Assembly: GCA_021234155.1 (NCBI GenBank)
Contig: JAJEKV010000035.1
Coordinates: 10,788,407 to 10,852,406 of the forward strand
From: Isoetes taiwanensis
Lineage: Eukaryota > Streptophyta > Lycopodiopsida > Isoetales > Isoetaceae
Direction: 5' to 3'
Length of the DNA stretch: 64,000 nt
Position numbers and translations under genes: made by a program. Below the pieces are notes generated by a model. It searched no databases. It was not told where the DNA came from and saw nothing but the letters and a program-made list of their open reading frames with translations. Below, piece after piece: positions 1,452-38,549 of the stretch (the stretch's first letter is position 1; every line of letters begins with the position of its first letter).

Positions 1452-1798
1452 ATTCACGCCAGGCGTTCATTCAAATGAAACCAATTCACGCCAGGCGTGA
1501 TTTCCTGTAATGAAACCAAATCACGCCAGCGTGCTTTCAAATCAAACCAATCCAGGCCAGTGAAATGTTAAAGCACGCGGCGCAGTATTGATTTGATTTG
1601 AAAGCACGCCGGCGCGTGATTTCAATTCATTTGAAATCACGCCTGGCGTGAATTCAACCGACTCGAAAGCACGCCTGGCGTGAATTCAAATTCATTCGAA
1701 AGCACGCCTGGTGTGAATTGCATTGGTGTTTAATTCATTTCACGCCAGGCGTGCCTTGAGGTTGATCTTTTCTATTGAAATCGCGCCCCGCGTGTTTC
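1452..1798. repeat. Palindrome family 1, main cluster
   Basis: About ten copies of a CpG-containing palindrome, consensus near AATCACGCCAGGCGTGATT, lie in the intron-like stretch after the splice donor at 1419. Clear copies are at 1452-1470, 1483-1503, 1518-1537, 1601-1622, 1633-1655, 1665-1687, 1698-1719, 1737-1754 and 1776-1798. Centres vary (CCAGG, CCTGG, CCGGC) while both arms are kept, which suggests selection or amplification of the arms. The same family recurs at 3881-4020 and as half-sites near 124, 170, 303 and 4995. I saw none in the other loci. Confidence 0.85.
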
Positions 1799-2420
1799 TT
1801 GTCTCGATCATCGATTCAATGCACAGTACTTTTGGCGGTCCATACGGGAGCAAACTGCGCCACGCCCGGCCAACAACGATGGGTGGAATATGGCTGCCCA
1901 TTACCCACCGCACGAGGCGGGTCAAAGTCCGAGGCTTTCAAAAAGGCTGCTGGAGCGGACTCTGTCGCAGATAATTATACAGGAGAAGAAGAAAACTGCA
2001 AGAAAATCAAAGAAAAAAGGTGGTGATGACATTGCAGATCCTTCTGAAAGCTCATCTAGCGTGTCAGGTCCAACAGACTTCGTATAAGATTGTGTTTTTT
2101 GTAAGGAGGCAAGATGGCAAAAGTGGAATGAATTCGGGGCGCTTTATGCACAAAGGAAGCCGCCGATACTATGGGTAGGGTGCCTCCTGTTGATGTAAGC
2201 ATCTTTGACTTGAATGTGTGACAGAGATGAGAAAGACTTCGGGGGCTAGACGACCCGAGACCATTTGGGTTTTAGATTAGTGCTTAAAGAAGGAAGTCTT
2301 ATACAAGAAGGGTGCTTTCACCAAGGATAGGATGTCCTTCGTTGAGTGCTTGCAGCCATGTGAAGGATGTGCATTAGAATGAAGTCACCGTAGGAGCTGA
2401 GTTACAAAGGCTATCGGGGG
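1799..2420. other. Decayed linker of locus 1
   Basis: No intact gene is visible. Short open frames (for example 1890-2087, lysine- and serine-rich near its end) may be remnants of the linker between the N-terminal and methyltransferase-like parts of locus 1, but no motif supports a firm call. Confidence 0.3.
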
Positions 2421-3112
2421 ATGTGGCATTATCCGAAATTGGATTCTTTGGACAAATACAAGGTCGAGAATGATGACATCAAGAAGTTTGTATTCTGGTC
2501 AAAGGACTTCCTAAAGAATTGGAAGGCTAAAAATACAAAACATAAGGAGACTCTACCCCTAAGGTCTTGGCCGAGAGTTGAGAAGAAAAGTGGCCCTTGT
2601 GAAGAAGATTCTTGGAGAAGACGACGCTGTCCAAATTCCGGTCTCCATTGGGTACAAAGGTCTCTTGCCGTAATCAGCGGCCTTAAAAATATATCACTCT
2701 TTGTGTTGGGCCCGCCAGGGGTGGGAGAGGAGATATGGGCATGAACCCGGAAGGACTACATCAACTTCTTTACCAGTATATAGGATTGACAACCGAGAGT
2801 TCCTTCACTATTGTCATCGTTTGTCCTTGGGTGAGTCACATCTGCATGCACTATCCGGCTGCTCATGATCCGAGTGCCTCAAAGTTATTAGGGAGGGATG
2901 CCTAATATATGATGTTAAGGATAATGAGTCTGCGAACATCACGGAAGATGGCACATGTGATCTTTATTATGATATCCATCTTTGTCGGGGCGAGGAATAT
3001 GATATTGCTAAGGCCAAGGGTGACAATAGCGGTGCATGGGAATGTTTTCTTCTAGATGATCCGGACTTAAGAACTATATTCTTTCATACGGATCGATCAT
3101 CGGTCGAATGAT
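2421..3112 (+). pseudogene. Locus 1, methyltransferase-like segment with motif IV position
   Basis: Open segment 2421-2744, continuing in other frames to about 3112. Seen: a hydrophobic strand running into LFVLGPPGVG and then a tryptophan (about 2697-2740). This sits where permuted N4/N6 amino-methyltransferases carry the DPPY catalytic motif (motif IV). The equivalent place in locus 3 reads LIFIDIRGIN...WD. Further downstream in another frame, CDLYYDIHLCRGEEYDIA is readable, so frameshifts interrupt the protein. Known: in beta-class enzymes motif IV precedes the SAM-binding motif I, which is the order seen here (motif I-like segment at 3153-3581). Inferred: a decayed, probably non-catalytic relative. 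The family assignment rests on motif pattern only. Confidence 0.4.
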
Positions 3113-3152
3113 GATGAGTCGAAAAAGGATGAGGATCGGGACCCCATCCTAA

Positions 3153-3581
3153 GTGGGGAAATCAAGTCACGAGCTACAAACTAAGGAGAAGGGCCCCTTA
3201 AATAAAAAATGGATTTCCCCGCCTATGGCTGCTTACCTCGTCGAGGCATTTGCTCCAATTGATACAACCCGCTTGGAGCTTCATGTTGGAGGTTATATTG
3301 CCCGAGAGGCTCTTATGGGTGCAAGAAGATGTCACTGCTTTGTGAGTGATGAGCAGGCCAAAGACTTTCTTGAACCATTCTTCATGCATGTGCTTGCCAA
3401 GTCTCCTAAAGGCCCTTATGGCAACCTGAAATCATCAGCAATCAAAAGTCTCGTAGACTTGTCCAATTCGAAAGTGGACGTTGCTTCTGGTGAGGAACCT
3501 AGTAATCTGCACGATAAGGAAAGCGAGAATGAACAAATAGTCGCTAAACCGGCTGCTCAAAGTACCGTGATGGCAAAATAA
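3153..3581 (+). pseudogene. Locus 1, SAM-motif-I-like segment
   Basis: A 142-codon open segment containing LELHVGGYIAREALMGARRC followed by FVSDEQAKDFL. This matches the pattern of the C-terminal motif I of permuted amino-methyltransferases (strand, F-x-G-x-G loop, helix with A-L, G-R/K-R, then an acidic strand end). The corresponding piece in locus 3 is closer to canonical (VLDFFSAGTASRVAL), and locus 2 is more divergent. Here the loop reads HVGGY, so SAM binding is doubtful. It lies upstream of the FCP1-like segment on the same strand, the same order as in locus 2. A family search with a profile of beta-class methyltransferases would be decisive. Confidence 0.42.
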
Positions 3582-3880
3582 CTTAGGGAATATTTTTGCC
3601 CACATTGCGGGTGATGCAAGCAACAACAGAGTAGATTCCGCGGGTTAACAATGAAGTAATTGACGGGAAACCAAAAATGAAGGCAATATAAGGCGGCTCT
3701 AGTGATTCCACAGTTTGCCAAATCAATAGTAAAATAATGTCGGATTGTGAAGGACCTTGGGAACTAATAGAAAATAACAATTCTAACAAATGGAAGAAGA
3801 CGAAGATTAAGGGTGGCGAAGGGAGAATGAGCCGATGACGCGCAAATAAACTCAAGATGATAGGTATGGCCTTGCCCACA

Positions 3881-4020
3881 AAATCGCGCCCACGCGTGAT
3901 TTAATTTGTATTACCTTTGAATTAAATCGCGCCAAGCGTGCTTTGATTATTTTTGTTGTCAAACTAAATCACGCAGAAGCCATTTGATTATGACTATTTC
4001 AAATCACGCTTGGCGTTTTG
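3881..4020. repeat. Palindrome family 1, second cluster
   Basis: Three palindrome copies (3881-3902, 3924-3944, 4001-4020) plus a half-site near 3966 lie between the methyltransferase-like and FCP1-like segments of locus 1, probably in an intron. Locus 2 has palindromes of its own family in the intron at the equivalent place (36,295-36,432). Confidence 0.8.
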
Positions 4021-4094
4021 TATTTTGTGTTATCGTATCTTGCTGACCCGGATACATGTTTGATGTTTCAAACTTCCATTGCGTTTCTAAGAAG

Positions 4095-4708
4095 GTTGTG
4101 GTGTTAGACCTAAACGAGTCCTTTGCAAGACTTTCCCGAAAAATAAAGTGGCTAGAGAACGGTTTCATCGGACACCAGTAGAATCAAACACCAAGTGGAT
4201 CTATCCGCGTCGCGACTTGAAGGAGATGCTAGATGAGGCATTCAGGTTATTTCGAGTTGGTATTTGGTCATCCATGGAACTAAGGAACATCAAGGATACT
4301 TTGGAGGCACTGGGGGAAATGCATAGACATTGGTTGACCTTTTGGGATCAGAACAAATGTGTGAAGTTCACTAATCCCAAGGATCTAACAGGCAAGCCTA
4401 TCTTCATCAAACACTTGAGTAACATGATGGACGAACTTGGTATCGAGAATAAGGAAGATATAATCATAGTGGATGATGATGCTCTCAAATGCTTCTACAA
4501 TCAAACACAGGCCCTGAATCCACCATCTTACGATCCAAAAAACTTTGCAACAGATGATTTTCTGGTGAAGTTTGTGTCTATTATGCATAATTTGGCTATG
4601 GGGATGACGGTGGGTGAAGTGTTAGATTCATACCCAGAACCGGATAGAACACCTGACATGGAACCACATCTTGTTAAACACGTGGAAAAACATGGATTGA
4701 TCCCTTAA
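4095..4708 (+). pseudogene. Locus 1, FCP1-like HAD phosphatase domain (one frameshift)
   Basis: The first strand reads VVVLDLNES (4095-4121) and is followed, after a one-base frame change near 4145, by an open segment to the stop at 4708. Seen in order: YPRRDLKEMLDEAF, VGIWSS, FWDQNKCV, the lysine of GKPIFIKHL, and IIIVDDDA, then a tail containing DSYPEPD. These are the HAD motifs of the FCP1/SCP (NIF) phosphatase family, which removes phosphate from proteins such as the RNA polymerase II tail. Motif I is D-x-N in place of the usual D-x-D, which may weaken catalysis. The tail resembles that of locus 2 (NYPSLTEPD). Family call is firm. Activity is doubtful because of the frame change and the Asn. 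Confidence 0.72.
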
Positions 4709-6576
4709 TGTTTTATTGGAATATATGATATTTTTGTATGATATTTGTGCCATGTATCGATAATTTCGAGTCTGGAATTGCCTCGCAAATAATGCAATCT
4801 GTTATTATCAAACCTAATATTATCATCTAAATGCTCTTCAATTTTGGTCCCATCTATGTTAGCAACTTGCTCTTCATTTTTGCATATTTCAATTCGCATA
4901 TGAAACGTCACACGTGAATCGCAACCTTATGTTACTTTTGAAGTCCAAAAAAAAAGATTAAAAAAAACAAAAACCCCCTAGAAGACAATAGCAGGTTGGC
5001 GTGATTTTGGAGTTGACATAATCCCAATTTAATTGGATGATGGTTCAAACCATTAAACCTCCAAGGCTTGCCTGTTTTCGAGCTATTTTTGTTTTTGAGC
5101 CTGGTTTGCAACGTGTTTTTGAGTTATTTTTGTCATATTTGCAAAATTTTACCTTCAAAGCTATTCCAAGGCCTTGTAACCTAAATGTCTTGATGCACGT
5201 GCAAATACCATAAGCAGAGATAAATGACAGAATGTTGAGTTAAAGACCACTTTGATTAAACATTCAAAATAAGATCTCTTGAGACCAACTTCTTATTGCT
5301 CATTATACTAAAATTATATAGTGAAACAATCGTTTTCGCAGACCATTATGCCAAACAAATACTATGGTCTATTCCTGAAAACCCTTCGGGGTGAGTTTTT
5401 TTAAGCTTGATAATAATTGAATTACTAACGGGTACTGGGCCAGTGCCGTTCTGCTGCTGTTGGAACACCAGCAAAATACCATTCGACATTTAACATAGGT
5501 CCCAAGATCGTACGAATTTGTTGCCACTGAGACATCCACATCATCGTGCCACATCACCAAATTGATGACATCATCATCCTAGTCATCAAAGATTCCACAT
5601 CACCTATATTTGGTCTAAGTTTCAAATTTCCAAGGTACCAGAACTGTGTGGCTCTACCACCACTAAGGGCCACCGTTCGGCATGCAAGATGTATTCTAGA
5701 GCAGTGGGTTGGACACCAAGATTGATACTAGGACCATTTAATTCAATTCAATTTAATGTACATTGAGTAATATTGAGCAAAAATCGAACTAGCTTTTAGA
5801 CCATGTCATAAGTCCTAGAGTTGTTTTGTCAAACCATACTAGTTTTAATGAATTACTACAGTACGCATGAAACAATCTCATAAACCATAACTAGTTTTAA
5901 CAAACCACTATCACATTTAAAACCAACATCCATAACTACCATCGATCCCAACAAACCACTGTGACATGTGGTTTTTTTCTATCAAATTAAATCATGCATG
6001 AAAAACCACATATATCATGGTTTTTAGATGATCTGACATTTGGTTTTTAGATGATCTGACATTAAAGCACGAATTCATTAATTAGAGAAATTTGGAATTC
6101 TCGTTTAGCATGAAATAGGTTAGCGGGTAGCCATATAGTGCAAAAACTACTACCAATTGAGTAAAAGTTGGCGTTTTTTTGCACAAATTCTGCAAATGCT
6201 TCAGTCTTATTCGGAAATATAGTTTTTACTGCTAATGCAAAGTTCACCGCGAGTATAACGTAGTAGGAGGGAGTGTGAAAACTTCTCGCAAGAAGCGCGA
6301 ACGCGATGTTTCGCAGCTGAAAGGAGACGAAAGAATGTGCCTTTTATTAAAACCATATGAGAGCATTGTGTTAAAAGAAGGTACCGAGGAGCAAGGATAT
6401 CACACAAAATTCAGTATTTAAAGCCATGTAATTGCTACAGAGGATCGCGGTCGCGATTATTTTTAGCATTAAACATATGGTAAAAGATATGGGTAAAGAC
6501 AAAACCAAAGTTTTCGAAACAAAAGTTTTCATTGAAGGAAGTAATATACAACATAATTACTGATTGAAGGAGATAA
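4709..6576. other. AT-rich intergenic stretch
   Basis: No gene recognised. The right end of the locus-1 element and the left end of a possible locus-3 element should fall here, but I could not find matching terminal repeats. A 22-bp direct duplication lies at 6019-6063, and one half-site of palindrome family 3 near 6297 marks the start of locus-3 territory. Confidence 0.4.
6019..6063. repeat. Short direct duplication
   Basis: Two adjacent copies of a 22-bp sequence beginning GGTTTTTAGATGATCTGACA, at 6019-6040 and 6042-6063. It could be replication slippage or an excision footprint. Confidence 0.8.
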
Positions 6577-7270
6577 TTATTCTGATTGTGTTTCAGATAC
6601 TTGATCAGGTATCACACCCATTTCATTGGCCATGCGATTGACATGCTCTCTACCCAATTCCATAGCTTGTGTTGTGCCCATCTCTGAATAACCTGTGACC
6701 TCTGGAATCTGAACACCCATGGCGTTTGCGATGCGCTGCAGATGTGAATCAGGCTCCCATTCTTCACTGTCCACTGCACTGCTCCCGCCTATAAGTTCGT
6801 TTTGCAGTAGCTCCGCAGCAGTAGCATTCTGATGTGGATGATAGAGCTTCTGCTTCTTGCTGTGTACCTGATGCTCCTGTGACCCAAGAACCTCATCTTG
6901 GTCAATGTCCATGTGCTGTTGGTCTGCTTCCATGTGCTTTGGGTCTGTTTCCATGTGTTCTCATACGTATTCAAACTTATGTTCGCCTGTCAAGAAAGGC
7001 ATGTACCCATCAAGCTTCTCATTAAGTGCATGCAATTTTTGGAAAGTGGGCTCCAGGGCTTCTATACCTTTTTCCGTCTCTTCAAGCAAGCGCTTTGTTT
7101 CTTGCATTCTCTCTTCGTAGGACTTAGCATCGAGGTTTTCCAAAATGGAATCCAACTTTGATAGATCTGTGTTTTGGGTGATACTGATGTCGGGTTGAGC
7201 TGGATCAGGGTCAACATTCTCTGCTTTCGGCTCTTCCTCAAACCCATCGGCACTTGGATTGGCCATCTTA
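6577..7270 (-). pseudogene. Locus 3, C-terminal tail
   Basis: Open segments 6961-7270 and 6577-6954 (separate frames) form the downstream end of locus 3 on the minus strand. Seen: an acidic, proline-containing stretch, then a Leu/Glu/Lys-rich region likely to form a coiled coil (around YEERMQETKRLLEE), then repeated M-E/D-x-D-x-x-H-M patterns and a final stop. There is no FCP1-like domain here, unlike loci 1 and 2. It follows the motif-I-like segment directly, so it is probably the same protein after a small frame lesion or intron. Function unknown. Confidence 0.45.
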
Positions 7271-8450
7271 TCAAAGCGTTTCAAAGAACGCCTCGGGGAA
7301 ACGACACACTTTACCTGAACTTTTGAAAGCCACGCTCTTTTTGCCTTGCATAAGAGCAACACGAGAAGCCGTCCCAGCCGAAAAGAAATCCAGAACACAA
7401 CCATCAGTCGGCACCAGCTGTTCAACAATATGGTAGGCATAGGAGGTTTTCAGCTGGCATTTCAATACAAGATCTCCTTCCATTGCCGCCCATTTGAATC
7501 TTGGTTTGCCTGTAAAAAGAGTCTGATATTTCTTTTTTATCTTCTCGTCGGCATCCTCATTACACCGCTAGCGGCATTGGAGGCAATGGTGTTGACTTAG
7601 AGCCTTGCCGTGTGGATATAGGTGAAGCTCCAACTCACGGTTGCATTGGTGCTACGAACATCACTCCTGTTAATAATGCACATATGACTAATAAAGTACT
7701 GATGTTCTTTCACCCTTCTTTTGCTCTCCCATCCCGTTTCTTCATAGGAACCTAAAGATAGGTAGCCACCGCCCTGAATTTGCTTCTGACTGAACAAGCA
7801 ATTGGGCAAATTCACTGAGCGCATGATAATGACCAAGTGATAAACTTTGGCATCCGTCATGGTAGCTATCCTTGTAAATAGATCTGTGTATTTCTTGCAA
7901 TCCCATACCTTGTTTATCCCTCGGATGTCAATAAATATCAGTGTCGCATTCTCTGACACTTGGGAGGAAGTAGGGATGCCATCCTTTGTCACTGCTATGA
8001 CAATATTTTTCTTTTCCTTTCTTTTTCTAGCCTCTTCTGGCTTTAGAATATTCCTGATTGGCTCCAAAAAGGCTACAGGTAGGTTACCTAGTGTATGATC
8101 CTTGTTATAGTTAGCCTTCACGTACTCTGTATCGGTATCTGATATATCCAGTATTCTCTGTTCAGTGAAATCAGGAAAAGCCTGAAGCAATTCCTCCCAG
8201 CTATCGAAATCCTTTTGCAGCAAATTTGAGGCATAAGACAAAATTTCGCGCCTCATAAAAGTGAGGGTTCTGATGTCAATTGCCCGTTGTCTGCAATCAA
8301 ATCTCCCGCTATAACCTGACTGCACCTTTAAATAGGTCTTGCCTTCTATAATCTCATCGAGCAGCTGTGACAACTCTGCATTCGACATACCTCGTAGCAA
8401 CCGGAGCCAGGTCTTGTTAAAGAAGTCTTTGGATGGCTTGTCTGGAAACT
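7271..8450 (-). pseudogene. Locus 3, permuted amino-methyltransferase-like core
   Basis: Minus-strand coding read from 8450 down to 7271. Seen: LIFIDIRGIN...WD at the motif IV position (canonical DPPY replaced), followed by a helix and KVYHLVIIM, then about 150 residues later GKPRFKWAAM and HIVEQLVPTDGCVLDFFSAG, which looks like SAM-binding motif I. The IV-before-I order is that of beta-class N4/N6 DNA methyltransferases (known family). Lesions: a one-base frame change near 8470 separates it from the upstream exon, an in-frame stop lies near 7597, and another shift lies near 7560. Two of these could be small introns. This is the best preserved of the three copies, and a nuclear, transposon-linked role is inferred. 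Catalytic activity is doubtful because DPPY is lost. Confidence 0.5.
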
Positions 8451-8471
8451 CACCATGATCGTCACTGAAGT

Positions 8472-9240
8472 TTACGACTCACCCACGCATACAACTTCCA
8501 TTAACTTCTTGAAAACCTTCTCATCCATAAAAATGAATTGCTTTTCATCCTTAAGCTCCTGCACTTTCAAGGTGGTCGTTGCAATTTCATGGAAATCCTG
8601 CAGAAGCAATTTCAAGGTCATCAAGATCGCGGCCGCGAACTTGGCGAGTAGAAAACTAATAAATACCTTCCAAGCTGAAGTTTTAGCTGTCCCTATAGGT
8701 CCTTGTGGAGGGCAACCATAAGCCTTGTGCTGATGACGAAGTTGTTGCAGTTTTTCAATCAGTGGCTCTCTGTACACGGTGTTTGCAATTACTTCGTTGC
8801 ATTGAATACTCAACTCTATATATTCCTTGTCTGTAAGATTTCCGTTCAGCACCCTCGATCTTCTTCTAGCATATACTTTGGCAAATTCTACGTTGCTTTG
8901 CTTTCGAACTTCGCCCGACGAATCGAACAAAGGAGTTGTGCAGCACAAATACTGTGGTTGCCAGAAATAATATAAAATTTCTTGCCCTTCAAATCTTCTG
9001 GATTGCTCCATGTCACCCTCCTCCTGAAAGATAGACAACCGTCAGGTCAAATCTACATAACGAGTGTCCAAAAGATAAAGAATTAGTTACCTGGTAATAG
9101 GGTCAAACGGAACGACGTCAGCAGGGGTGAGGACCTCTGTCGGGTATGTCTTGAAGCTTTTAACCGTGAGTTTGAACATGGTCATTTGACCGCGTTCTCG
9201 TGTGTCAAGTTTGCTGGTGCGGTTCACAATCAAAAATAGA
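8472..9240 (-). pseudogene. Locus 3, upstream exons with two clear introns
   Basis: Two exons precede the methyltransferase-like core. Exon about 9240-9091 encodes MTMFKLTVKSF and PADVVPFDPI and ends at a donor (AG/GTAACT). Intron 9090-9024 is 67 bp. Exon 9023-8667 continues with EEGDMEQSRRFEGQEILYYF, and intron 8666-8598 (69 bp, GTATTT...CTGCAG) contains a copy of palindrome family 3. The next exon runs to about 8472. Because 69 is a multiple of three, the intron can be misread as coding. The clean splice sites argue this was a spliced host-type gene until recently. The N-terminal similarity to loci 1 and 2 (P-D-V-x-P) ties the three together. Confidence 0.55.
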
Positions 9241-10161
9241 AATCTTTGTAAACCAATTAACCCCTAAGGGGTAGAACCTTTTGAACTGCTCAAGCTTACG
9301 AGTGGTTTGCTCGCCATCTTGCGTTCCTCTTCTGATTGAACTTCAACTTCGACTAGAATGGCGGTGCTTGGGGCCATGTCAATGCTAGTTTAGAGGAGGC
9401 ATTAAATGGCGAGGGGGTTTGAGAACCTATTGGGCTGGGGCTATCCTCACGAGGTGTCGATTCTTAAGGCTAATTTTGAAAGGAGGGAATTTTTTTGGAA
9501 TAAATCCACCAGGATGTATTGCTATCCGGGGCCTTCAATATAGCAATAGGAAGAGTAGGGTTAACAATATCTGGAGGGGTTTATCGTGGATTGTGGTTCT
9601 TGAGCAATTTCTTTTTGGTGCTGAGGTCTCTCCCAAAGTAGCAATAGGCTTCACACTCTTTTCTTGGCCACGGCTCTTAGCCAATTGGTGTCCATCCGCG
9701 GAGGGCATCTTCGTCCGAACCGCTTTCAAGGCACAGCTCGGGAGGCTTCTTGTGCGTAGACAAACCATTTTACGCATGTCGAGAACCCGGCAATATGTCT
9801 CTGTTCCCTTTATACGACAAAGAGAGAGATTCATAAGATGGCAACAACCAGCCATACCCTTAGCCGGCGTCGGGGCGTTTTCCCCGTGGGCTGGCTTGTT
9901 CATTTTGGTTGGATGTCATCAAAAGACGGGTCATAATTGCGCCATTTCAAAATGTACTCCGAAACGCAATGCTTGTGGGTCCTCAATGCTGCATATGATG
10001 GCATCTTGCACATTGTTCTTCGTGCCTTCCCACATTGCCACCACTATGCCAACTTGTTCAACGTCCTCGGCTTTTTTCGGTCCAGCGAAAGCGGGCACAT
10101 GTCCTTTTCTGCGATCACCCTTAATGTCTAGGTATAGCACTGTGCAATCTCGATACACCAT
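9241..10161 (-). pseudogene. Locus 3, possible N-terminal coding remnants
   Basis: An open segment at 9931-10,161 begins with Met and reads MVYRDCTVLYLDIKGDRRKG, and further short open stretches follow down to 9535 in other frames. No domain is recognised. Its position directly upstream of the locus-3 exons, on the same strand, suggests the N-terminal part of the same gene. An overlapping 290-codon frame on the plus strand (9419-10,291) is judged to be an antisense shadow. Confidence 0.35.
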
Positions 10162-10480
10162 TTCCTTTCATTGGAAGGGGTTATATCTGGTGGCTCGACA
10201 TCCGGTCCTCGGAAGAGAGCAAGTCTTTGTAAACAAAAGCAGTAGTGAGTGCCTGGTAGGCTGCATAATGTGGTGCAATAAAAAGGTTTAAACTATCAGA
10301 GAAACGCGACCGCGATCACTTGGCGGCTAAAATAGAACTCCACACAATCGGCGCGCGACTTTGTGTAGCACTTAAACACGGCAAGAAAACATCGCTGTCG
10401 CGAAACTAATGACCTACTACACTAGTCTTGATGAACATCGCAATAAAGAAAATCTATGCTCGGCCGCATCGCGGCCGCGA

Positions 10481-10640
10481 TCTTGATGAGCAGCTACACT
10501 ATGAAGACCGCTATCCGAAATTATAAAACCAATCAAGCAAGACCACGGTCACGGATCTTGATGAGCAACTACACTTATGAAGACCGCTATCTAGAAATTA
10601 TAAAACCTATCAAGCAAGACCGCGACCGCGATCTTGGCTG
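10481..10640. repeat. Tandem repeat of about 78 bp carrying a palindrome in each unit
   Basis: Two imperfect copies of a unit reading TCTTGATGAGCAGCTACACT, then AAGACCGCTATC and ATTATAAAACC, then a copy of palindrome family 3. A partial third unit follows to about 10,680. It shows how the palindrome may multiply: by local duplication of a larger unit. Confidence 0.75.
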
Positions 10641-10699
10641 AGCATCTATACTATGAAAACAATAGAAGTTCTAGTAGGCAAGATCGCGGCCGCGATCTT

Positions 10700-12146
10700 C
10701 TTTGAGCTGAAATGTAAGAAAATACCTTCTCCGAGGGAGTCCTTAGGTGCCATGGGATCGCGGGCCGGTTCAAGATCTGAAATATGGGTTTTTTTGGAGT
10801 GGGTCGGGAGCGCCGGAGGTCGATAGGCGCTTAGGCTGTGAATGAAATCGCGAGTAGAAATTAGGTTTTGAATGTTTTGAGTTTCAATTTATAGAACGCG
10901 TCATGAAAATTAAATGCCGCCCCTCATGATGGCGCTTTTGAAAAACGCGTGCAAACCATAATGGCGTCGTACGCCGGGCAAAATAATTACCGGCCGGCCG
11001 CCTGTATTTATTCCCCGACATTAATGCGGTCGTGCAGACTATACCCGTCCGGAAAGGCCAAGTAACCCGTCACGAAAGGTCTTTATCCACTTGGGCGTCC
11101 GCGTTCAATTTGGTCATAATTTTGGACGACACTTTATCGACCATAAATGCCTCCAAAATATCCGGTTTCTGACGGACGGACCGGCCGACAAAAAATTTGA
11201 ATTCGAGAACAAACCAATTCGAGAAAGCGGAAAAGCCAATTCAAATTTCATTGTTTTGCAAGATCTTCGGCCGGGCTGTCGCCTAAAATTGGGCCAAGTT
11301 TGGGCAAGGATTTGCTGCGAATTCGCATCCATTGAAGGCGCTGACGAGGGCTACGATAATCTGCTTGCAATCCGCCACTACACACCGAAATTCTGCAAAA
11401 CCGCATCGAATTCAGGGTTTCTGCCGAGGTAAAAGGCCTATTCTGATGCATATCCCTCACTGAAGTGAACTGAACGTATCAGTAATGCACTGAATTTCAA
11501 TTATAACTGCAACCTCCGAGTCTCTGCACTAACATTCACTATGTATTGCATGGATTGATAAGATACCTCCTGATACTTTGTTGCAACTATGTAAAAATAG
11601 ATGTTCTAAGCAAAACTGTGCACTCTGGTGTGTTTATTATACAATGTAAACGTGTTTCAAGTATATGCTTTCTTTCTCTATGTGGATGAAACTAAACACT
11701 GTTTTTATGACACTAAACACCGTATTCTGTGAGGTAGGAGTAATGCCTTATTCTGTAAGTCAATCGTTTAACTTTGGTGCTCCACGAGATCGGGCGGTCA
11801 TGATACCTTCAACCATCTACACTTGCTATTGACCAAAGAACTCCCGGATATCGATAACTTAGAGTTGAACCCACTAGCTAGCCTCGAAATTTGATTTGCC
11901 GCGGTTCTTATTGAAAACGGCTAGTGTGAATGCTTGCAACTAAGCGCGACCGCGTTCTTACCCATGCTCGATAAGATCGCGGTGGCGAAAGTCGGACCAT
12001 TTCTTATTTTTCGGTTCATATTTTTTGTAGTGGTTTATGATCCGCGGTGCTTTACGCTCACTAGGATCGCGGCCCGGCGCTATTCCACGACCTCTTGTTT
12101 GGGAGGATGGCTGATGTAATTCCGGCCAGATCTGGCCGGGAAAAAG
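10700..12146. other. Possible bidirectional promoter region between locus 3 and the DUF7869 gene
   Basis: No gene recognised. The region separates the minus-strand locus 3 from the plus-strand transposase-type gene and contains several family-3 palindromes at its right end. An open frame at 11,091-11,432 (+) has no recognisable domain and is not called. GC-rich stretches (10,900-11,400) alternate with AT-rich ones (11,450-11,750). Confidence 0.35.
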
Positions 12147-13450: not shown

Positions 13451-13754
13451 AGCAATAGCTAAGAGGATAGCATTTTCCAAGTGTAACACCCTATTGTCAT
13501 AAAGGAAAAGCTTGCTAAGACCGTAGATCCAAACGGAAAGAAGGGTACTTGCAATAGAGAGAAAAATCACATATGACGGCCCAGATTTCATGCGGAGCCT
13601 TTACCGGTCTGGAGAGCTTTGTCGCATAGATCTCCGAGCACGCTTTTAACCATTATACATGATAAGATGGATCAAATAAGACCATGGTCCCTCGTCTAGA
13701 GAAGCTAGCAAAGTCCAGTATGGAGGGGTGAACGACTGAAGGTCAGTGTTACAG

Positions 13755-25969: not shown

Positions 25970-26169
25970 AAATCTTGAATTTTGGGACTCGGACTGAAAA
26001 TGGGACTCACACACCATAAAAGAAATTTCTGAATTGATTGCTTGAATAGAATTACACATGACACACATAGAATTGGGTTACTTGTTTTCCTCATAAATTT
26101 TACAAACCACTAGTTGAGAAAGTTTTCAAACTTCTCAATATTATGTACCCTCATACAATAATATAGCAT

Positions 26170-29087: not shown

Positions 29088-29300
29088 AAACCATATAGCC
29101 CCAAACACCACAAATATGACCATATGAACCATATAAAACCATACAAACATATTAAATATAACCATATTAAATCATACAACCATATTAACTAAAATCATAT
29201 AACCATATTAAACCATACTAAACCATATGTAAACATTGTAACCATATATAACCATTGAAACTATTCAACCATTGAAACCATATTAAATATATAAGATAAC
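29088..29300. repeat. AT-rich ACCATATTAAA minisatellite
   Basis: More than ten irregular repeats of (A)ACCATATTAAA/ACCATACAA with 10-20 bp spacing in the centre of the 12.6-kb element. Confidence 0.75.
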
Positions 29301-29340
29301 ATATATAAACATATAACCCAACCTTTCATATCTTGTCATG

Positions 29341-29426
29341 GCCACGTGGCGCCTCCTCAGAGGCTGAAAGCGTGGCCATGTCAGCAATCCGCACTGCCAC
29401 ATCATGGAGGGCATGGCCCACACGTG
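29341..29426. promoter_or_regulatory. Two G-boxes in a probable divergent promoter
   Basis: GCCACGTGGC at 29,341-29,350 (perfect palindrome) and CACGTG at 29,421-29,426, between the divergent transposase relic and the candidate first exon at 29,868. G-boxes bind bZIP and bHLH factors in plants. Use here is inferred. Confidence 0.4.
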
Positions 29427-29867
29427 ACAGAAGGGCATTATTGCACTTTTACGAGGTTCGGGAGGGTGCGCCTTAATTAATCGCACCCTCTTCCTCTCCC
29501 CCACCATTCTTCCTCCCCTCGCTTTCTCCTCGATCACTCTTCGAGCTCTGTATTTTCCTTAAGCGCCCGCTTTTCCGATCAGGCGATCGATCGAACCGAG
29601 CCATTCCAAGGCCATCTTATGACAGCAGCTTGGTCGACGGATCAGACGCCTTCCACCGGGTTCTCGCCAAGCAGATTGAGTGTTCGAGCCAAGCATCGCC
29701 TCGAGAAGAAAGTGAGGCCCTTTTTTAGTGTCGCTTAGTTTTCTCAGAAGTCCTCAGACTGCATTTTTACTTATGTTCTCATTGTTAGAGGCTCTTATTA
29801 ATCCCTCGATACAATTTATACAAAATTCGACAAATCCTTATTCAAGGCTTTAACGAATTATACCCAC

Positions 29868-29914
29868 ATGGAATCGAACACGGAAGCCTCCTCCTCAACC
29901 AACAAATCTTCCAG
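29868..29914 (+). CDS. Candidate first exon of the locus-2 gene
   Basis: ATG at 29,868 opens MESNTEASSSTNKSS and ends at a consensus donor AG/GTATGT (29,914/29,915), followed by a pyrimidine-rich intron-like stretch. It lies between the G-box region and the rest of the plus-strand cargo gene. Short, so only a candidate. Confidence 0.4.
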
Positions 29915-30639
29915 GTATGTTTTTGTAATATCATACCCTTTTTTAATCTCATTTCTCTGTACTGTTCTCTGTTTTCTCATTAATCTCATTTGTCTCCAGT
30001 GTTCTCTGTTTTCTCATTAATCTCACTAATCTCTCTGTTATCTGTTTTCCTTTTGTATTGTTTTCTGTTTTTGTTATCTTTTTCTTGCTTGTGGTTGAAT
30101 TGAATACATTGTACGTGCACAAGTAGAATAGTGGTTATAGTAGTAGCAAGCAACCGAGATGTCACTCATCGAGAGAGACAGGTGTTAGAAGTAAGATATT
30201 GCGAGCATTAACGTAAGAGATTCACAAAAGATATAGCTAAACTGCCTAAGAATGTTTCATATAAGAACATAACTAGGAATGTTTTTTCCCCAAGAATAAC
30301 TAAGAATAGGAATTGCTTCACGGACCGTGATTTCTAACTCACAAAGATATCCTCCACTCGCAGAGACATGCAGGAGTGGCGAAGAAGAATATTTGCTTGC
30401 AACAAATCCAGAAAGTTTCTTCTTCGAATCAAGCGAAGTCGAGAACTTCTCGACTGGGCAGGCGGCGAAGAGGGAGTGTACACTCGGACTGCTGGCCCGG
30501 TGAGGGATTCTCGACTCGCGATCCGATTGCACACGCCTACCCAATGTCTTCACATTCTTTTTAAGCTCTTTGCTGACCTTCTCTCACCGTAAGTCGAGAA
30601 TGTCATACCCATCAATGGCCCTTTTGTGTAAGAAGTGCC

Positions 30640-32100
30640 TCCACCCACCCCGAGTCACTCTCCTTCAACCATGCTCATGAATATTGCGGCGAGGACCGGC
30701 TCCTCGACCGGGTGGGAGGCCTCCCGCGACTAACCACGAGGTGTTTCACGCCGACTGCGTGGAGTCGAAAAAACGCAGGCTCTAGTGCACTTGTAGCGCT
30801 GGCCCGTGACAGCCTAACCACTCTCCTTCTATCTTCCCTGGACATTATGAAGGAAGTGGTTTTGACTGCCTCAAGCAGGCCAACCTTAGCAACCCAATTC
30901 TCCCCGTGTGTGGTCGCAAAGTGGCCTCTACCCAATCAAAGACCGCCTCCTTCAACCATCTTCGCCTAATATTGCGGGGATGGGCTCGACAGGGAGGAAG
31001 GCGACTAACCACGAGGTGCCAGCCGCCGACTAGTCGAAAAACGGTGCACTCTAGTGCACTCTAGAGTCGGGCTCAGCAGACAGCCTTTTAACAACTCTCC
31101 TTCTATCTTCCCTGACATGCGCGGGAAGTTGTTTTGACTTGTCCCGCAGGCCAACTCCCAGCAACCCAATTCTCCTATTTGTGGTCGCAGCGGGCCTCTA
31201 CCCAATCAAAGACCGCCTCCTTCGAACCATCTTCATCGAATATTGCAGAAGGGATGGGCTCTGATTGGGTGGAAGCCTTTACAACTAACCACGGGAAACC
31301 ACAGCTTCTTTCAGATGCATTCTCGGCCAAGGAGTGGGGAATGCCTTACCCAACCGCACTCCATGTGTACCATCCGAAGTTCTCGATGGCATAAGGCATT
31401 CTCGACTTTGCGAGTCGAGAATGTAGAGAGGAAGCCAACGATGATTCTCACTTCGCTAGTCGAGAATCCTCTAGCCACCAATTCTCCCGTAGGTTGTCGC
31501 AAATTTCTCTACCCGCCGAGCCACTCTCCTTCAACCATCTTCGACGAATATCGCTAAGGGAGGGGCTCTCCGACCGGATGGAGGCCTCTACACCAACCAC
31601 GAAAACCACAGAGCTTCGTCCCCGCATTCTCGCCATGAGTCGGGAATGCTCTTAACCAACCGCACACCATGTGTACTAACCGGTTCTCGATGGTTAAGGC
31701 ATTCTCGACTTGCGAAGTCGAGAATGTAGACAGAAGCCAAGCATTCTCGACTGCAAGTCGAGAATCCTTTAGCCAGCCCAATTCTCCCAGAACGGTAGCA
31801 AGGGCCTCGACCCAGCCGAGTCACTCTCCTTCAACCATCTTCGCCGAATATTGCGAAGGGAGGGGCTCTGACCGGGTGGAGGCCTCTACAACTAACCACA
31901 GGGGAAACCACAAAGAGGAAGCCAAGGCTTGCATTCTCTACAACTATCGTGACTTTCTATTCTCCCTGCTTTTAGTCCCAAGTGCCTCTAGCCTGCTCCT
32001 CGAGCCACTCTCCTTCAACCATCTTCCCTCGAATATTGCGAAGAGGAGTGGTTCCGACCGGGTGGAGGTCCCTCCGACTAACTACAAGAGGATGCATTTG
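30640..32100. repeat. Six-unit degenerate tandem array
   Basis: Units of about 190-310 bp, each with a core reading CTCTCCTTCAACCATCTTCG, then GAATATTGCG, GGGTGGAGGCCTCT and ACTAACCACG. Cores start near 30,655, 30,948, 31,215, 31,522, 31,822 and 32,008. The third to fifth units also carry palindrome family 2. No convincing coding. Confidence 0.8.
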
Positions 32101-33071
32101 AAACGATCTCATGGGCCTTAGACCTAGCCTCGATCTATGTACAACATTCCAAGAAAATACCCATGAAAAAAATACACCTAAAACGAATCGTTTTTACCCC
32201 CATCCATTGTTTCCTTGCCGAGCATCTCTCAACCCGTAGAGTAAATCATCTCTAAGCTGAAAAATGCCGGATAAGGAAATGATGAACTGGCCGAGCTTAT
32301 CGCCAGCTCTATTATTTAAACACGTACCGCATGTTCTACAAGCTTAAATAACATAGGCATCTCTCAAACTCACCTCTTCACGCAAGCAATTCCTTGGGCC
32401 ATCAGATCACGGATCCCGCAGGAGTCTTTGCTTTTCCTCGCGGTCTCTTCAAGAGTGTATTCGATCTAATACTTGTATCATCGCGATTCTCGCTGGGCAG
32501 ATCCCCGCTCCATGGCGCAAAGAATGTAGAGTTCCCGTTCCGCAGCTCCTCTCCGCTTCCTACCTTAGCTCTCGCGGCTCATCGATCAAATCAACTGCTT
32601 GCAATAGGACGCTACGGTCGAAAAAACACACATATGCAAGGCGCCAGTAGCTTATCACACAAGGGCGCCATTCCGGCAAGCATACGATGTCACGCCCAAC
32701 TCAAGGTCACCAATGCCGCAGTTGAAGATAAACACGCCCGCCACTTAGTCCCTTTGATGTGATTAAATTTCGAAATAGTGTTTGGGCGGGCTAAAGGCGA
32801 CCGTGGCTGCACTTTTAGCCCGCTTTTTTCATAAATGATTGCATGTCCTTAAATTCAAACTAAAGAACACGCCCGATCTTTTTTACATGCAGTCCTAAAA
32901 CTCACAACGCCCGGAGGAAACTTAATTTACAGAGGGGTCCGATCAGGAAGAAGATGAGGGGGCATACAGACATGGCGACTCCGGCCCAAGAAGCTTAGGC
33001 GCGGAGGGGATGCTTCTTCCAAGCAAGAAGAAGAAGAAGACAAACACCCCGTGTGAGCTCGAGGTTTTTCT

Positions 33072-34230
33072 TTGTCGGAATACCTTAACCGATCCATCCT
33101 TTCTTCTTGCAAAGATTCACCTCCTGACTCACCGGTGATCACCGGGTCAACTCCATTCTTCGCCATCGAGGGATCGGAGATAGAGCTTCTTGACACAAAG
33201 AAGCAGATTCTTGGTGGTATGTCGAGGTATCAACAAGTGGGAAGGAGAAAGATCTGCTTCTCCACCAAAGGGACAAGAAGAGCTCCTGAGACAAGTACAA
33301 GAAAATCGGTGTTGCGCCTCCGCCTCTCGCTGATTCAAGCATTTAACACTACATGTCGAGGACCCCGTAAGAGTAAGTTCTATCACACCAAAAAATTAGC
33401 AGCTTCAAATTATTCTCACTCTTCCATGAGCAAGGCGAAGGGCACCAAAAAAAGGCGGCGCTTTTAAATTGTCGAACCTTGGGTGGAAGGATCTGGAAGG
33501 GATGAAGGAGGCCGAAACCCTAACATCCAGGGAGCTTGGTATGGAGATTTCCAGAGTCAGGGAAAACCTGTTCAATACGGGGAGCTTCACTTCTACTGTG
33601 CTGAAGACTCTACAACACTCTGCAGTGGGGAGTGAAGTTGTGGTTCATACGAAAAAGTCCGCCAAAGACCAAAGATGGAGAAGATGGCACCACACCGAGG
33701 AATCGATGATGACGAAGGAGACGAAGATATGGTCGACTCCCCAATAATGGATCCGCATGATCGTGATCAGATTTGACAGAGAGGGGCACGTAAAATGGAG
33801 CTGGCCGGCTCAAGATATCCGCTGGGGAATATCACACAAGCCGCCGCTGACATTAGACGGTGAAGGTTTGCACGGAAATGCCGCCTTGTTCAACCATTGA
33901 ATTTAATCCAAAGACACATGCCGGAGATTCTCAACCCCGATGGTGTGACATCATGTTGCGCATCCAATGCCCGCGGATGTCATACCTTTTAGCGATCGAC
34001 CGGTGAGTTGTTCACCGGAAGTCCGAGGAAGCGTCCGGTTCGGGTTGTAGACGGCCAAGATTCGAGGGCTGGCGCTAAGTATCCAAAGTGAGGGCGGCGA
34101 GAAGGAGGTGCCGCAGCGATCAAGGATAGATATGCTGCGAGAGTGCAGAAGTTCTTCAAATGAGACGCCAAAGAACCTAACCAGCCGATTAGCCAACGCC
34201 GTAATACAATAGCAACGAAAGTGCCGCCAC
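33072..34230 (+). pseudogene. Locus 2, N-terminal coding remnants
   Basis: Open segment 33,072-33,467 (EYLNRSILSSCKDSPPDSPV and a basic Lys/Arg-rich end) is followed by pieces similar to locus 1: RYPLG at about 33,812, LIQRHMPEILNPDGV at about 33,903, and RVVDGQDSRAGAKYP at about 34,038. Stops and frame changes interrupt the reading. The function of this region is unknown. Its conservation in loci 1 and 2 shows both derive from one gene type. Confidence 0.45.
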
Positions 34231-34847
34231 GTAAGGTAAATAACTCTCTGATTCTTTCCATTCGCTGAAGTCGAGAAAGCCCTACCATCCTAACATTTCC
34301 CGATATCACCGGGTTTCTCGACCGCCGCCGTCGGTGCCGGGTAAATACGTAAAAATCAAAGGATGCGAGCTTTCGACTTTCGAGTCGAAAAACCCGAGAA
34401 GTAAAAGAAAATTCGACATTCAGGGATTTCGGGGCGAAGTCGAAAGCCCTACCATCCTAACATTTTCCGATTATCATCGGGGTTTCACTCGTGAGTCGAG
34501 AAAGCCGTGTATACGTAAAATCAAAGGATGTAGGGGCTTTCTCGACTCGAAGTCGAGAAAACCCGAGAAGTAAAAGAAAAATAGACATTCAAGGGACTTT
34601 CTCGACTCATGAAGTCGAAAACCCGGGCTACTATTTATCGCTTATTCCGCGGTGTTTGTAGATACTTTCATGCTCGACATTGGTACATTGACCAATGCAG
34701 CCTTTATCCCGACCTCGTGATCATACACGCCAGGGCAACAAAGGGAAAGCATTGGGTTGTCCTCGGCCCTAAAGGAAACAGGGCTCCCTGGATAAGTGGA
34801 AGACCTTTGAGAAACTATGCATATATGTTCTCACCGAGGGCCGGAAG

Positions 34848-36294
34848 ATGATGAGGGAGAGGAAGAAGAGGAGAAGAAGAAGAGAACACCAAGGAAAGGC
34901 AGGGAGTCTCTCTCGCACCAATATGACCTCATTCTTAGCACCGAGGCGGTCCGGGGAGAAATGGACCGAGATATGGGCTCAATGGACACGAGGCAAGCCG
35001 GGGACAAAGAATGGAGAATTTCCATCCGTGCCGGACCCCAAGTTGTTTGACAAGCAGTTCATGAAGAGGATACAGGGCCTCACGGACAAAGAAACGCTTT
35101 GACCTACAAGGCGTAATCTTGGATGGAACAATTCTCGCTAAGGAAGATGAGGAGTTCTAAAATGCAGACGCAAAAAGGATTATGCCACGTCCCGGCTTAC
35201 GGCAAGCGTTAGAAGAAGGCATCACGCGAAGTTCTCGCAACGCTGCATCTAATGAATATCATGATTTTGATTATTACAAGGAAAAGGCTGCCCTTGATGA
35301 GGAAGACATGAAGGAATTGAACCGCCTATGTCAACCCTACATCAACACCAAGCTGAAGCGCAACGCCAAAACCCTTCCTTTCCCCTCGAACGTGCTATGG
35401 CAATTCTCAAGAGGAAGCTTGGATTCGGGGTGGTCCCATTTAAGGCAGACGATAGCTCCCCCCCATTTCTGGTAACTTTGGGACACAAGGGATTTGGTGG
35501 TCTGGAACTGGCACCTGGACCCGTGGCACTATTTGCCATCAATATGATCGAAGACCCCACCCTTTTTTATGACAAAGCTGACATAGAGCAGTGGTACAAG
35601 ACGGTTCCGACATGACCGACTGGATACTTTCGCCTTGTCTTTTGCATGCCGGGCAATCGACAACCGCTGTCTCCCAATGGGCAGCTGATATTAACTTCAC
35701 CAACAAGATCGTGCACTCCATATACGAACTTGATCATGAGTGCAGACTTGGCTTGCCGAAGGCACCAAGCTTTGCCAACATAGTTTTGGTTTTGATTTCA
35801 AGATCGGCGGTAGACCTGGATAAGTGGTGGTCTAGCGAACATCATTATCTCGACAAGTTCATGATCTCTCAAGAGCAGATGGAACCCTGGAAGGGGGGCA
35901 GATTTATGGAGGATGTTCCATCGATGGACAAGGTCAGCAAAGATGGTGCGACAGGTCCTATACATAGAATTCCTATCCGGCCAAGAGTTATCAAGTACTT
36001 CATAACCAGCTTGGTCGAGGAAGATCAAATTGTATGCGAGTGGTACATGAATGGCCTGTTCTCTCAGGGGGCTATGCTGTATGGCATGAAACCTATATCC
36101 GTGGTTGGAAATAAGGACATGGTTGAAACCATTCGGTCATACCTGGATCTGCTTCATGAGCATTTCAAGGGGAGGAAGACAAATGGAAGCAGTAAAGACG
36201 ACGAGGACGAGGGAGACAAAGCTGACGGAGATGAGAATGTCGAAGGTTTAGACCAGAATGTTGCCGAACACATTCTTGAAAACCTGAGATTGAG
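34848..36294 (+). pseudogene. Locus 2, methyltransferase-like region
   Basis: Plus-strand segments 34,848-35,102, 35,182-35,475, 35,328-35,615 and 35,591-36,294 overlap in different frames and look like one coding sequence with indels. Seen: EDMKELNRLCQPYINTKLKR, KLGFGVVPFKADDSSPPFL, VALFAINMIEDP...W (position of motif IV), and near the end RVIKYFITSLVEEDQ then CEWYMNGLFSQGAMLYGM (position of SAM motif I, strongly diverged). An acidic Asp/Glu/Lys linker leads to a donor AG/GTGAGT at 36,294/36,295. The assignment as MTase-like depends on alignment with locus 3. On its own this copy would not be recognised. Catalytic residues are not conserved. Confidence 0.4.
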
Positions 36295-36432
36295 GTGAGT
36301 TTACTTTGCTCTATCGGTGTTTCTCGACTCGCGAGTCGAGAAAACTCGTTTCCTTTCAATACCTTTTCTTTTCATTCTCGACTCGCGAGTCGAGAAAACT
36401 CGTTTCCTTTCTGACAGATGTCATCATTTCAG

Positions 36433-37285
36433 GGACTTCCATGTCAACGACTCCGGATCATTGTCATTGGATAGCAGCGGTTCACGTCGCGAGGAGGAGA
36501 ATGCACTCCACAAAGACAATCCAGAGCAAGACACTGCTCACAGCCAGAAAGGACTTGAGAAGATAATGATCCCACATTTGGATCCCGATGAACCGGAAAT
36601 ATGGTCAGAGCCAAACTCCAACTGGGATCCAGCTGGTCCCACCAAGCTTGTAATATTTGACGTCAATGGAGTATTAGCTGCAGTATACCACGATAAAGAC
36701 GTCCCCGAGATTAACACCTCGCAGATCCCAACCAAAACAGAGCATAAAATAGTGTATCCGAGGCCTAGAGCTAAGGAAATTGTTGAATGGTGCCTGGAAC
36801 GGGGATTCGAAGTGGGCATATGGTCTTGTATGGCAAAGAAAAATATTGTCAATGTTCTTGGTGTTCTCGGCATTTCGGTTTTGAAGTTCAAGTTCGTTTG
36901 GGGAAGCAAAAGGGTCGAGCATGTGTCGGACCTCGATCCAGCCATCACAAAGGGGAAGCCTATAATGGTGAAAAGGTCGGACAGGGTTTATGAGCAATTC
37001 CGTGGACTATGGCAAACACAACACGCCATCATAGATGACTCCGCCCACGAAGTGCTATCATAACGCCAAGAAAAATACAATCATTGCTAAGCCATATCGA
37101 CCAAGAATATGAGACGGATAGGTGGTTGTCCTTCTGACCGTGTCCTTGCCTTGGCGGAATCCCTCTTTGCCATTCTTGTCGCCGATGTGATTAGTAACTA
37201 TCCGAGCCTCACGGAACCCGATCCAGAGAGCAAGGCAATCATGAAAGCTATGGACGACAAATATTTTGGTGAACAAGAAGAGTGA
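36433..37285 (+). pseudogene. Locus 2, FCP1-like HAD phosphatase domain
   Basis: The exon begins at an acceptor (ATTTCAG, 36,432). After an acidic, Ser-rich linker it reads LVIFDVNGVL (motif I, about 36,647-36,676), YPRPRAKEIVEWCLERGFEV, VGIWSC, KFVWGSKR, a lysine in GKPIMVKR and HAIIDDSAH (about 37,024). A frame change near 37,060 gives a stop, but coding continues as YHNAKKNTII and then, after another shift, ILVADVISNYPSLTEPD, ending at 37,285. This is the FCP1/SCP (NIF) family of Asp-based protein phosphatases. Motif I is D-x-N as in locus 1. Joined to the MTase-like exon by a 138-bp intron with two palindromes. Probably a recently decayed gene. Confidence 0.75.
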
Positions 37286-37786
37286 CCTCTTTTTGATAGT
37301 CAAATTGTGTGAATATTGTAAACAAACGTGAACACATGTATTGAACATTTTGTAATGAATATACTTGTATATTGAGTTTTCGATGCCTTTCTCGACTCAC
37401 GAGTCGAGAAAGGCATGCTTGTCCTGTTGATGAGACAATTTGTATGTTTGATTGTGTGACTGGATGCAGCCACAATCTATTATGATAATGCTTCTACGCT
37501 ATTTTGGGCCTTTCTCGACTCGCGAGTCGAAAGGCATGCCGGTTGTCTCGCTGACGAAAAGCATTTGTATGCTTCCGTGTGATTGGATGCAACCATATTC
37601 TAATGAGAATGGTTGTACTTTGATTTTATGGGCCTTTCTCTCTTCAAGAAGTCGAAAGACACTACTTCCCACGCCATTGATGCGGTTGTATGGAATGAAT
37701 GTTCTCCATTGTAATTTGATTTCAACATTCTTTTCTTCGCTTTGACTAATGGCACCGTGAATTGTTAATCATACTCTCCTTGCTCC

Positions 37787-38282
37787 GTGGTTCAGGCACA
37801 CCGATCCGACACCAAGACAGCATCCCGGCCAGGCATCACACGTAGACCGCCCCAGCGGCACGGATCCCGCCAAGGCGGAGGAAATACCGCTCGCACGCGC
37901 ATCCCCGGTCACGCCACACTCTTGCCCGCCTTTGGGATAAGGTTGCTCGCGCGAATTCGAGGTTGCTCTACACCCCGGGATAAAGAACAAAAGGAAGAAC
38001 AAAGAGAAAGTCCAGGAAGCTCAAAGCATCTTGCAAGCATTGCATAACATCCACGGAGGTTGGGGAAGGAGCATATTCGATGAAAGGCTGCGGGAGGCGA
38101 GTGGAGAAGTCGGGTGGACAGGTCGGCTGGTAGCTCCAGAGGCACCTCCACGTGAGGCATTCCACACTCTTCAGGTTGCCCCCAAGGCTTACAGTCGGCG
38201 TGAAGAAGCGCCGCTAGTTAATCCCCTAAGGTGGACCACCTACCAAGATGATGTAACTGTAGTGACAGCAAGACCACCATAA
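37787..38282 (+). pseudogene. Locus 2, possible terminal exon with poly(A) signal
   Basis: Open segment whose last part reads LHNIHGGWGRSIFDERLREA and ends with WTTYQDDVTVVTARPP. A consensus AATAAA follows at 38,327-38,332, 45 bp after the stop. No domain recognised. The position suggests the 3' end of the cargo gene, about 300 bp before the right terminal repeat. Confidence 0.4.
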
Positions 38283-38549
38283 TCTCTGCGTCCGATGTAA
38301 AATACATTGTATCTGTTCAATTTATTAATAAAAATTCTTTTTCAACTAGATCTTTAGTTTCAAACTTTAATGAATTTCCTTTGTTTCAGTTGCATTGTTC
38401 TTGTTCTCGACTCGCGAACCAGGAAAAACTGCAGCAAAGCTTGGATTCAGAGTTTTATTCAAAAATTCGAATTAAGGATAGTTTTCGGGTCGGGGTGCTA
38501 CTTTTTATGTAAATTAACCGGGTTCCGAAAAAAAATGGGAATGGAATGA

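Follow-up and report, generated by a model that had tools for sequence, protein, structure and literature searches.

The analysed window, a stretch of 64,000 nucleotides of the Isoetes taiwanensis genome (C1040:10788407-10852406), holds DNA transposons in which short palindromes are repeated, and each transposon has a palindrome family of its own: F1 at locus 1, F2 at locus 2 and F3 at locus 3. Our analysis showed one element with perfect terminal inverted repeats (TIRs), E2, a probable second one, E3, which probably belongs to the same group, and the right part of a third, E1, which begins left of the window (Table 1). The ends of E2 and E3 read AAGTC.. and AAGCA.., and both have target site duplications (TSDs) of 4 bp. 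E2 is surrounded by a repeat block of about 2-3 kb, present in several copies with 90-95% identity (22568-25944 and 38575-41587), and two neighbouring copies of this repeat without the insert represent its empty sites. For E3, the combined TIR and TSD score of the ends was reached by none of 92 shuffles. A Tc5/pogo-like transposase frame (16519-17436, minus strand; Pfam HTH_Tnp_Tc5 and HTH_psq) directly adjoins the right end of E3. On the E1 side, the 10 kb upstream of the window (L032) contain five weak F1 dyads with 4-6 mismatches, four of them at 7.5-7.9 kb, and no match to DUF7869.

Table 1. Transposons, genes and palindromic dyads in the window (positions are those of the window).
Feature	Position	Strand	Remarks
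E1, right part (locus 1)	1..5010	+	Accessory gene and F1 dyads; ends undefined
E2 (locus 2)	25945..38574		12,630 bp; perfect 25-bp TIRs AAGTCGTATTTAATTAAAGTGGGAC; TSD ACAC
E3, probable (locus 3)	6065..16513		10,449 bp; TIR 17/19; exact TSD ATTA
E1 accessory gene, broken	813..4708	+	From frames; methylase-like stretch 3153-3581; NIF 4091-4708 (Pfam E 5e-10)
E2 accessory gene, broken	33748..37282	+	From frames; methylase-like stretch 35582-36298; NIF 36433-37060
E3 accessory gene, broken	6580..9390	-	Methylase-like stretch 7274-7567
DUF7869 frame of E3	13709..15235	+	Open; Pfam PF25273, E 2e-44; 25 homologues
Decayed DUF7869 homologue of E2	26933..27625	-	30% identity to E3 frame, E 5e-16; stops
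F1 array, 10 dyads	1451..1798		Inferred intron, first half of E1 accessory gene; GT donor context at 1419
F1 cluster, 4 dyads	3881..4021		Inferred intron upstream of E1 NIF exon
Weak F1 dyad, 5 mismatches	4988..5007		3' of E1 gene
F2 cluster, 7 dyads	30420..31765		Between divergent E2 genes, perhaps accessory intron 1; exon 1 inferred
F2 cluster, 5 dyads	34253..34622		Inferred intron, first half of E2 accessory gene
Two F2 dyads	36320..36397		Intron upstream of E2 NIF exon; aligned in 7 copies
Four F2 dyads	37388..38426		3' of E2 accessory gene
F3 cluster, 4 dyads	10465..10699		Upstream side of E3 accessory gene, perhaps intron 1
Two F3 dyads	11973..12084		Upstream of E3 DUF7869 gene
F3 dyad	8623..8642		69-base GT-AG stretch, also open frame: intronic or coding; counted as intronic
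F3 dyad	6441..6460		3' of E3 accessory gene; 376 bp from E3 left end

Dyads were scored as pairs of 10-base arms, the spacer being left free, using AAATCACGCC/GGCGTGATTT for F1, TTTCTCGACT/AGTCGAGAAA for F2 and AAGATCGCGG/CCGCGATCTT for F3, at thresholds of at most 4, 5 or 6 mismatches per 20 arm bases. With at most 4 mismatches, every match in the window fell in its own locus (F1 11/11, F2 13/13, F3 6/6), and shuffles of the own locus gave on average 0.02, 0.03 and 0.00 dyads, respectively. With at most 5 mismatches, 15 of 16 F1, 18 of 21 F2 and all 8 F3 matches were in the own locus, and at 6 mismatches F3 reached 13 dyads where 0.9 were expected by chance. A search of the window for repeated dyads that used no motif gave 59 dyad seeds and recovered F1, F2 and F3, together with two small CpG-free families, ATGGAAACCC and GATTTCAATT, of 4 copies each; families of three or more were found in none of five shuffled windows. 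Rfam gave nothing at its gathering cut-offs.

The first-pass annotation had described three locus-specific, CpG-rich palindromes, and this observation was confirmed: the three consensus palindromes were found at the places it named. Its estimate of 12-20 copies each agrees with F1 (15) and F2 (18) at up to 5 mismatches; F3 has 8 at that threshold and 13 at up to 6. The arms were said to be kept while the spacers vary, which is right for F2 (3-5 in strong copies) and F1 (mostly 0-2) and hardly so for F3 (mostly 0). The claim that each family is confined to its own locus holds in the window and, at up to 4 mismatches, in 20 F2-lineage places elsewhere in the genome (below), and its scope is these places rather than the whole genome. 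As to the claimed location in introns or non-coding DNA, none of the 41 dyads with at most 5 mismatches touches a coding piece, one doubtful F3 copy at 8623 being possibly coding; exons were inferred here from frames and GT/AG context, and coding pieces were assigned by eye without RNA evidence.

The dyads of different families occupy matching positions with different sequence. They lie in the intergenic region or intron 1 in E2 and E3, in an early accessory intron in E1, E2 and perhaps E3, in the intron upstream of NIF in E1 and E2, and 3' of the accessory gene in all three elements. Only one dyad in E2 (of 18) and one in E3 (of 8) are within 500 bp of an element end, at one end each, and the DUF7869-side ends of both elements have none within this distance. 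These positions bear on the nearest rival explanation, that the palindromes are cis binding sites for transposition, comparable to the TnpA-binding subterminal repeats of CACTA elements. CACTA elements do have lineage-specific repeats able to form palindromic pairs (PMC2613891), and F2 sites are kept in gene-less copies, as such a role would allow. The position differs, however, and we regard this explanation as possible, if unlikely.

F2 was followed through the genome sequence (1,658,258,908 bases in 1,110 contigs). The core CTCGACTCGCGAGTCGAG occurs 3,851 times, while about 0.02 copies are expected for an 18-mer and the reversed control gave 0. Among 50 copies listed, 33 lie no more than 10 kb from a further listed one, compared with 4.5% expected if they were scattered. 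Even dispersal over the genome was the outcome that the first-pass annotation had set against its own idea, and F2, the one of the three families put to this comparison, is clustered. We then compared 20 places (L012-L031), taken mostly from contigs at the head of the list, an exact F2 core being the criterion for all of them. They contain 1-17 F2 dyads each at up to 4 mismatches, and F1 or F3 dyads in none of the 20 at that threshold. Twenty bases of the E2 TIR were found exactly in 10 of them, and E2-like accessory genes in 6. Discovery without a motif returned an F2-type family in 19 of the 20 places, as the largest family in 18; L036, the sole 8-kb region picked without the F2 core criterion, gave no dyad family. 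Sites for a host transcription factor or insulator, acquired by each lineage for its promoters and introns, could likewise account for the clusters seen in introns and close to inferred promoters. But the motif differs with the lineage, copies of the F2 core cluster in the genome, and the E2 TIR is present in half of the 20 places, so that host factors appear an unlikely explanation.

Two complete copies of the F2 lineage are gene-less, in that none of the six gene pieces used as queries matched them. One (L012, 2126-6125) has 4,000 bp, ACAG on both sides and 7 F2 dyads, and its TSD has 4 bp like those of E2 and E3; the other (L013, 1526-6098) has 4,573 bp, flanks that agree in 3 of 4 positions, and also 7 F2 dyads. 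Six relatives were compared with E2 over the intron that precedes NIF, gaps being counted as differences. In four of them the palindromes were better kept than the remaining intron sequence: identities were 0.96 vs 0.55 in L016, 1.00 vs 0.54 in L031, 0.90 vs 0.44 in L022 and 0.98 vs 0.87 in L025.

Changes in the arms were analysed by position pairs. One arm alone was altered in 44 of 46 changed pairs in F1, 41 of 47 in F2 and 20 of 22 in F3, a pattern somewhat favoured by picking dyads with few mismatches, and compensated pairs were rare (1/46, 6/47 and 0/22). Single half-sites exist as well. An RNA or DNA hairpin was rejected for the little compensation, and a rigid dimer site is disfavoured by the one-arm changes and the variable F2 spacers. 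The first-pass annotation had proposed sites for a dimeric protein encoded by the element. Lineage-specific repeated non-coding motifs in mobile elements agree with part of this proposal, and because the changes sit on one arm and F2 spacers vary, a reading of single half-sites seems to fit better than a rigid dimer. The same data concern the idea of palindromic repeats or hairpins that no protein reads and that tandem duplication has spread passively. Tandem arrays do hold 19 of the 41 dyads, yet 22 lie outside arrays, the arm changes are uncompensated, single half-sites occur, and palindromes are kept while the introns drift in L016, L022 and L031. We therefore consider passive spread improbable.

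CpG content was examined at the half-sites and around the dyads. In their own elements, CpG-intact half-sites outnumbered CpG-decayed ones by 25:1, 14:0 and 6:0. With the dyads masked, the observed/expected CpG ratio of E2 was 0.85 up to 1 kb from a dyad and 0.42 at greater distances, a contrast as strong being found in 0 of 30 circular shifts; the GpC control gave 0.94 near and 0.95 far. In E3 the ratio was 0.83 near and 0.62 far (2 of 25 shifts as strong). Of five stretches outside the elements, four had values of 0.44-0.55 and one had 0.73. This pattern fits lower methylation around the arrays, which the sequence can suggest indirectly.

E2 and E3 share one layout, in which a DUF7869 gene is divergent from the accessory gene. 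PF25273 was the sole Pfam match of the E3 DUF7869 frame at E <= 0.1, and the alignment of the homologues has conserved D, N and H residues. We interpret DUF7869 as a putative transposase because elements with TIRs and TSDs have it as their conserved gene, and because it carries these residues. An IMG/VR search with the alignment gave 28 pattern matches, of which 0 were confirmed, and no publication on DUF7869 was found in the literature library searched.

The accessory genes are more divergent. The NIF parts of E1 and E2 have 28% identity over 125 amino acids (E 3e-11), that of E2 matching Pfam at E 0.004, under the cut-off. The methylase-like stretches of E1 and E3 matched each other at E 1e-4, among small fragment sets. 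A profile built from E1, E2 and E3 found M.RsrI (two entries) as its sole match in PDB, at E 0.26, and aligned with N6/N4 methylases at motif I in hhalign (P 0.016, probability 2.9%). In a fourth lineage, described below, the matching open reading frame (ORF) hit Pfam N6_N4_Mtase at E 1.1e-4, under the curated cut-off, and there was no N6/N4 methylase match in Pfam among the scanned accessory pieces of E1-E3. Catalytic N6/N4 DNA methylases are expected to have a DPPY-type motif, and none was seen by eye in the broken E1-E3 frames. With modest confidence, we consider the accessory protein to be methylase-like and probably without catalysis. If it were active, the palindromes could be targets of a DNA methylase by which the element would mark its own DNA with 6mA or 4mC. 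The methylase-like motif I, the Pfam hit of the fourth lineage and the M.RsrI matches point that way. Since no DPPY-like motif was seen by eye and the similarity is weak, under the Pfam cut-off, we consider it very unlikely.

A ParB N-terminal domain, suggested by a resemblance seen by eye, was rejected, as it had no Pfam and no PDB match; the ParB-like stretches of E1 and E3 matched at E 0.004, no better than some unrelated fragment pairs in the same comparison. No homologue of the accessory protein was found in the protein collection with the E3 composite (E <= 10) or the three-row alignment (E <= 1), and nothing relevant on ParB, methylase or FCP1 together with transposons was among the literature matches listed. 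E1-like accessory genes were also found at L030:254-1616 (61-64% identity in the best pieces) and L029:6915-7175 (36%), with no F1 dyads at up to 4 mismatches. These are perhaps further lineages, or copies with their sites lost.

The fourth lineage was identified on C1 (L037, L012 and L034). It has an accessory gene and, divergent from it, a DUF7869 gene with 25-32% identity to that of E3. At up to 4 mismatches, AAGTGTATTCYRGAATACACTT occurs here ten times, in places similar to those of the F1-F3 dyads. Five copies lie between the ParB-like ORF and the methylase ORF, another overlaps the ParB-like ORF at its end, and the remaining four are on the upstream side of the DUF7869 gene; nested between the dyad groups is a gene-less F2 element. 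The arms of this palindrome contain no CpG, so that CpG-richness, correctly described for F1-F3, was discarded as a common property. A relative of the fourth lineage on C18 has DUF7869 pieces with 45-85% identity (57-69% for the longer ones) and two AAGTGTATTCYRGAATACACTT-type dyads, one of them perfect and upstream of DUF7869.

The remainder of the window contains two copies, 90-95% identical, of a region with DXS (1-deoxyxylulose-5-phosphate synthase)-like gene fragments, named by eye (18000-22627 and 43820-48473). Long CCA/GGT-type minisatellites are present at 50447-51143 and 55823-56316. A frame at 51297-51824 (plus strand) with NFFGSNHGKGEHDGKAAELKRW looks transposase-like by eye, and Pfam gave nothing below E 0.05.

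Several known systems resemble the elements described here. VANDAL transposons, which belong to MuDR/MULE, have TSDs of about 9 bp. E2 and E3 are not VANDALs, as they have DUF7869 instead of a MULE-type transposase (VANA) and TSDs of 4 bp. No match to DUF1985 (VANC) or to a MULE domain was found in the pieces scanned, the accessory genes being broken and scanned in part. Further differences are the palindromic motifs and the methylase-like accessory protein. The likeness to the Arabidopsis VANDAL/VANC system, as far as it is set out in the parts of PMC5735166 and PMC10398659 used here, lies in related elements with differing short motifs, partly in tandem, and in an accessory gene beside the transposase. 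The VANC targets occupy introns as well as intergenic and terminal non-coding DNA, have spread as tandem repeats and differ between related transposons (PMC5735166). The elements studied here likewise carry repeated motifs, specific to the lineage, in their non-coding parts. VANC21 and VANC6 have the same layout, with binding and demethylation proven (PMC5735166). The analogy with VANC drawn in the first-pass annotation is thus close in motif layout and does not extend to transposase or TSD.

CACTA (En/Spm) elements also have private repeated motifs that vary between families and a diverging DNA-binding protein, as described in part of PMC2613891, and TnpA activity accompanies demethylation, according to the corresponding section of PMC10398659. 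Their motifs are subterminal, with 3-bp TSDs and CACTA ends (PMC2613891), while the motifs here are mostly internal. Our elements were not assigned to CACTA because of their ends, their 4-bp TSDs and the lack of repeats in both subterminal regions. The Sola superfamily has TSDs of 4 bp. Likeness to Sola consists in this TSD length and in land-plant presence, Physcomitrella Sola1 being named in part of PMC9033089. Fungal DNA transposons with TET/JBP dioxygenases similarly carry an epigenetic accessory protein, but the protein and the superfamilies are different, and the sections of PMC12730594 used here report no private motifs. Among the literature matches listed, nothing relevant was found on palindromic motifs with DNA transposons.

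A protein made by the lineage itself best explains the palindromes, because they are private, occupy matching positions with different sequence, and are kept in decayed and gene-less copies. We give about an even chance to the proposal that each family consists of half-site pairs read by a protein of the same transposon lineage, which would mark and de-silence its own lineage. The reader would most likely be the fast-diverging accessory protein, which is N6/N4 DNA-methylase-like, probably non-catalytic, and in E1 and E2 also includes a part of the NIF/FCP1 type. Its binding at many sites, in the accessory introns and in the region between the divergent genes, would mark the whole element, which would then stay expressed and less methylated, in its own lineage only. 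Gene-less copies retain sites and could profit in trans. The motifs, their lineage specificity in the DNA examined, their positions, their retention in decayed and gene-less copies and a CpG pattern are observed; from these we infer the binding of a protein to the palindromes, its identity and its anti-silencing effect. The interpretation of the first-pass annotation is partly supported.

Several results weigh against this proposal. The search arms of F1-F3 were derived from the same data, and the genome-wide count covers the F2 core alone of the three families. E1 showed no CpG contrast (0.77 near vs 0.80 in a single far window), and the contrast in E2 and E3 is confounded with gene content. 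In two of the six intron comparisons the palindromes were not better kept than the rest (L028, 0.98 vs 1.00; L024, 0.58 vs 0.66, its second palindrome being gone). There is weak evidence that the accessory product may resemble a decayed DNA methylase, and this is the weak link: BLASTP between the methylase-like parts of E1 and E2 gave E 8.4, which amounts to no match. The C18 element has a second, different array of 7 dyads around AAATGGTTCCATGGCACCATTT by its accessory gene (L017:9419-9944). L030, whose E1-like gene includes another piece of 44% identity, has no F1 dyad within 4 mismatches, and in L030 plus 8 kb upstream, discovery without a motif found an F2-type family alone and no array beside the gene.

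VANC provides proof that a transposon can recognise itself through a private, fast-changing motif and undo its silencing. By analogy, the best reading is that the present system may work like VANDAL/VANC without being a VANDAL. More tentatively, and with the chances somewhat against it, we suggest that anti-silencing of the VANC kind evolved a second time, independently, in an unrelated group of DUF7869 transposons with 4-bp TSDs, in which the reader would be a sequence-specific binder derived from a methylase and the palindrome would be swapped per lineage in matching introns. If this is true, the same layout with another transposon group and another protein would indicate that the strategy evolves repeatedly. 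It would also give the DUF7869 genes and their divergent partner a likely function, and provide natural protein-motif pairs for studying how specificity changes, and possibly tools for sequence-specific epigenome editing.

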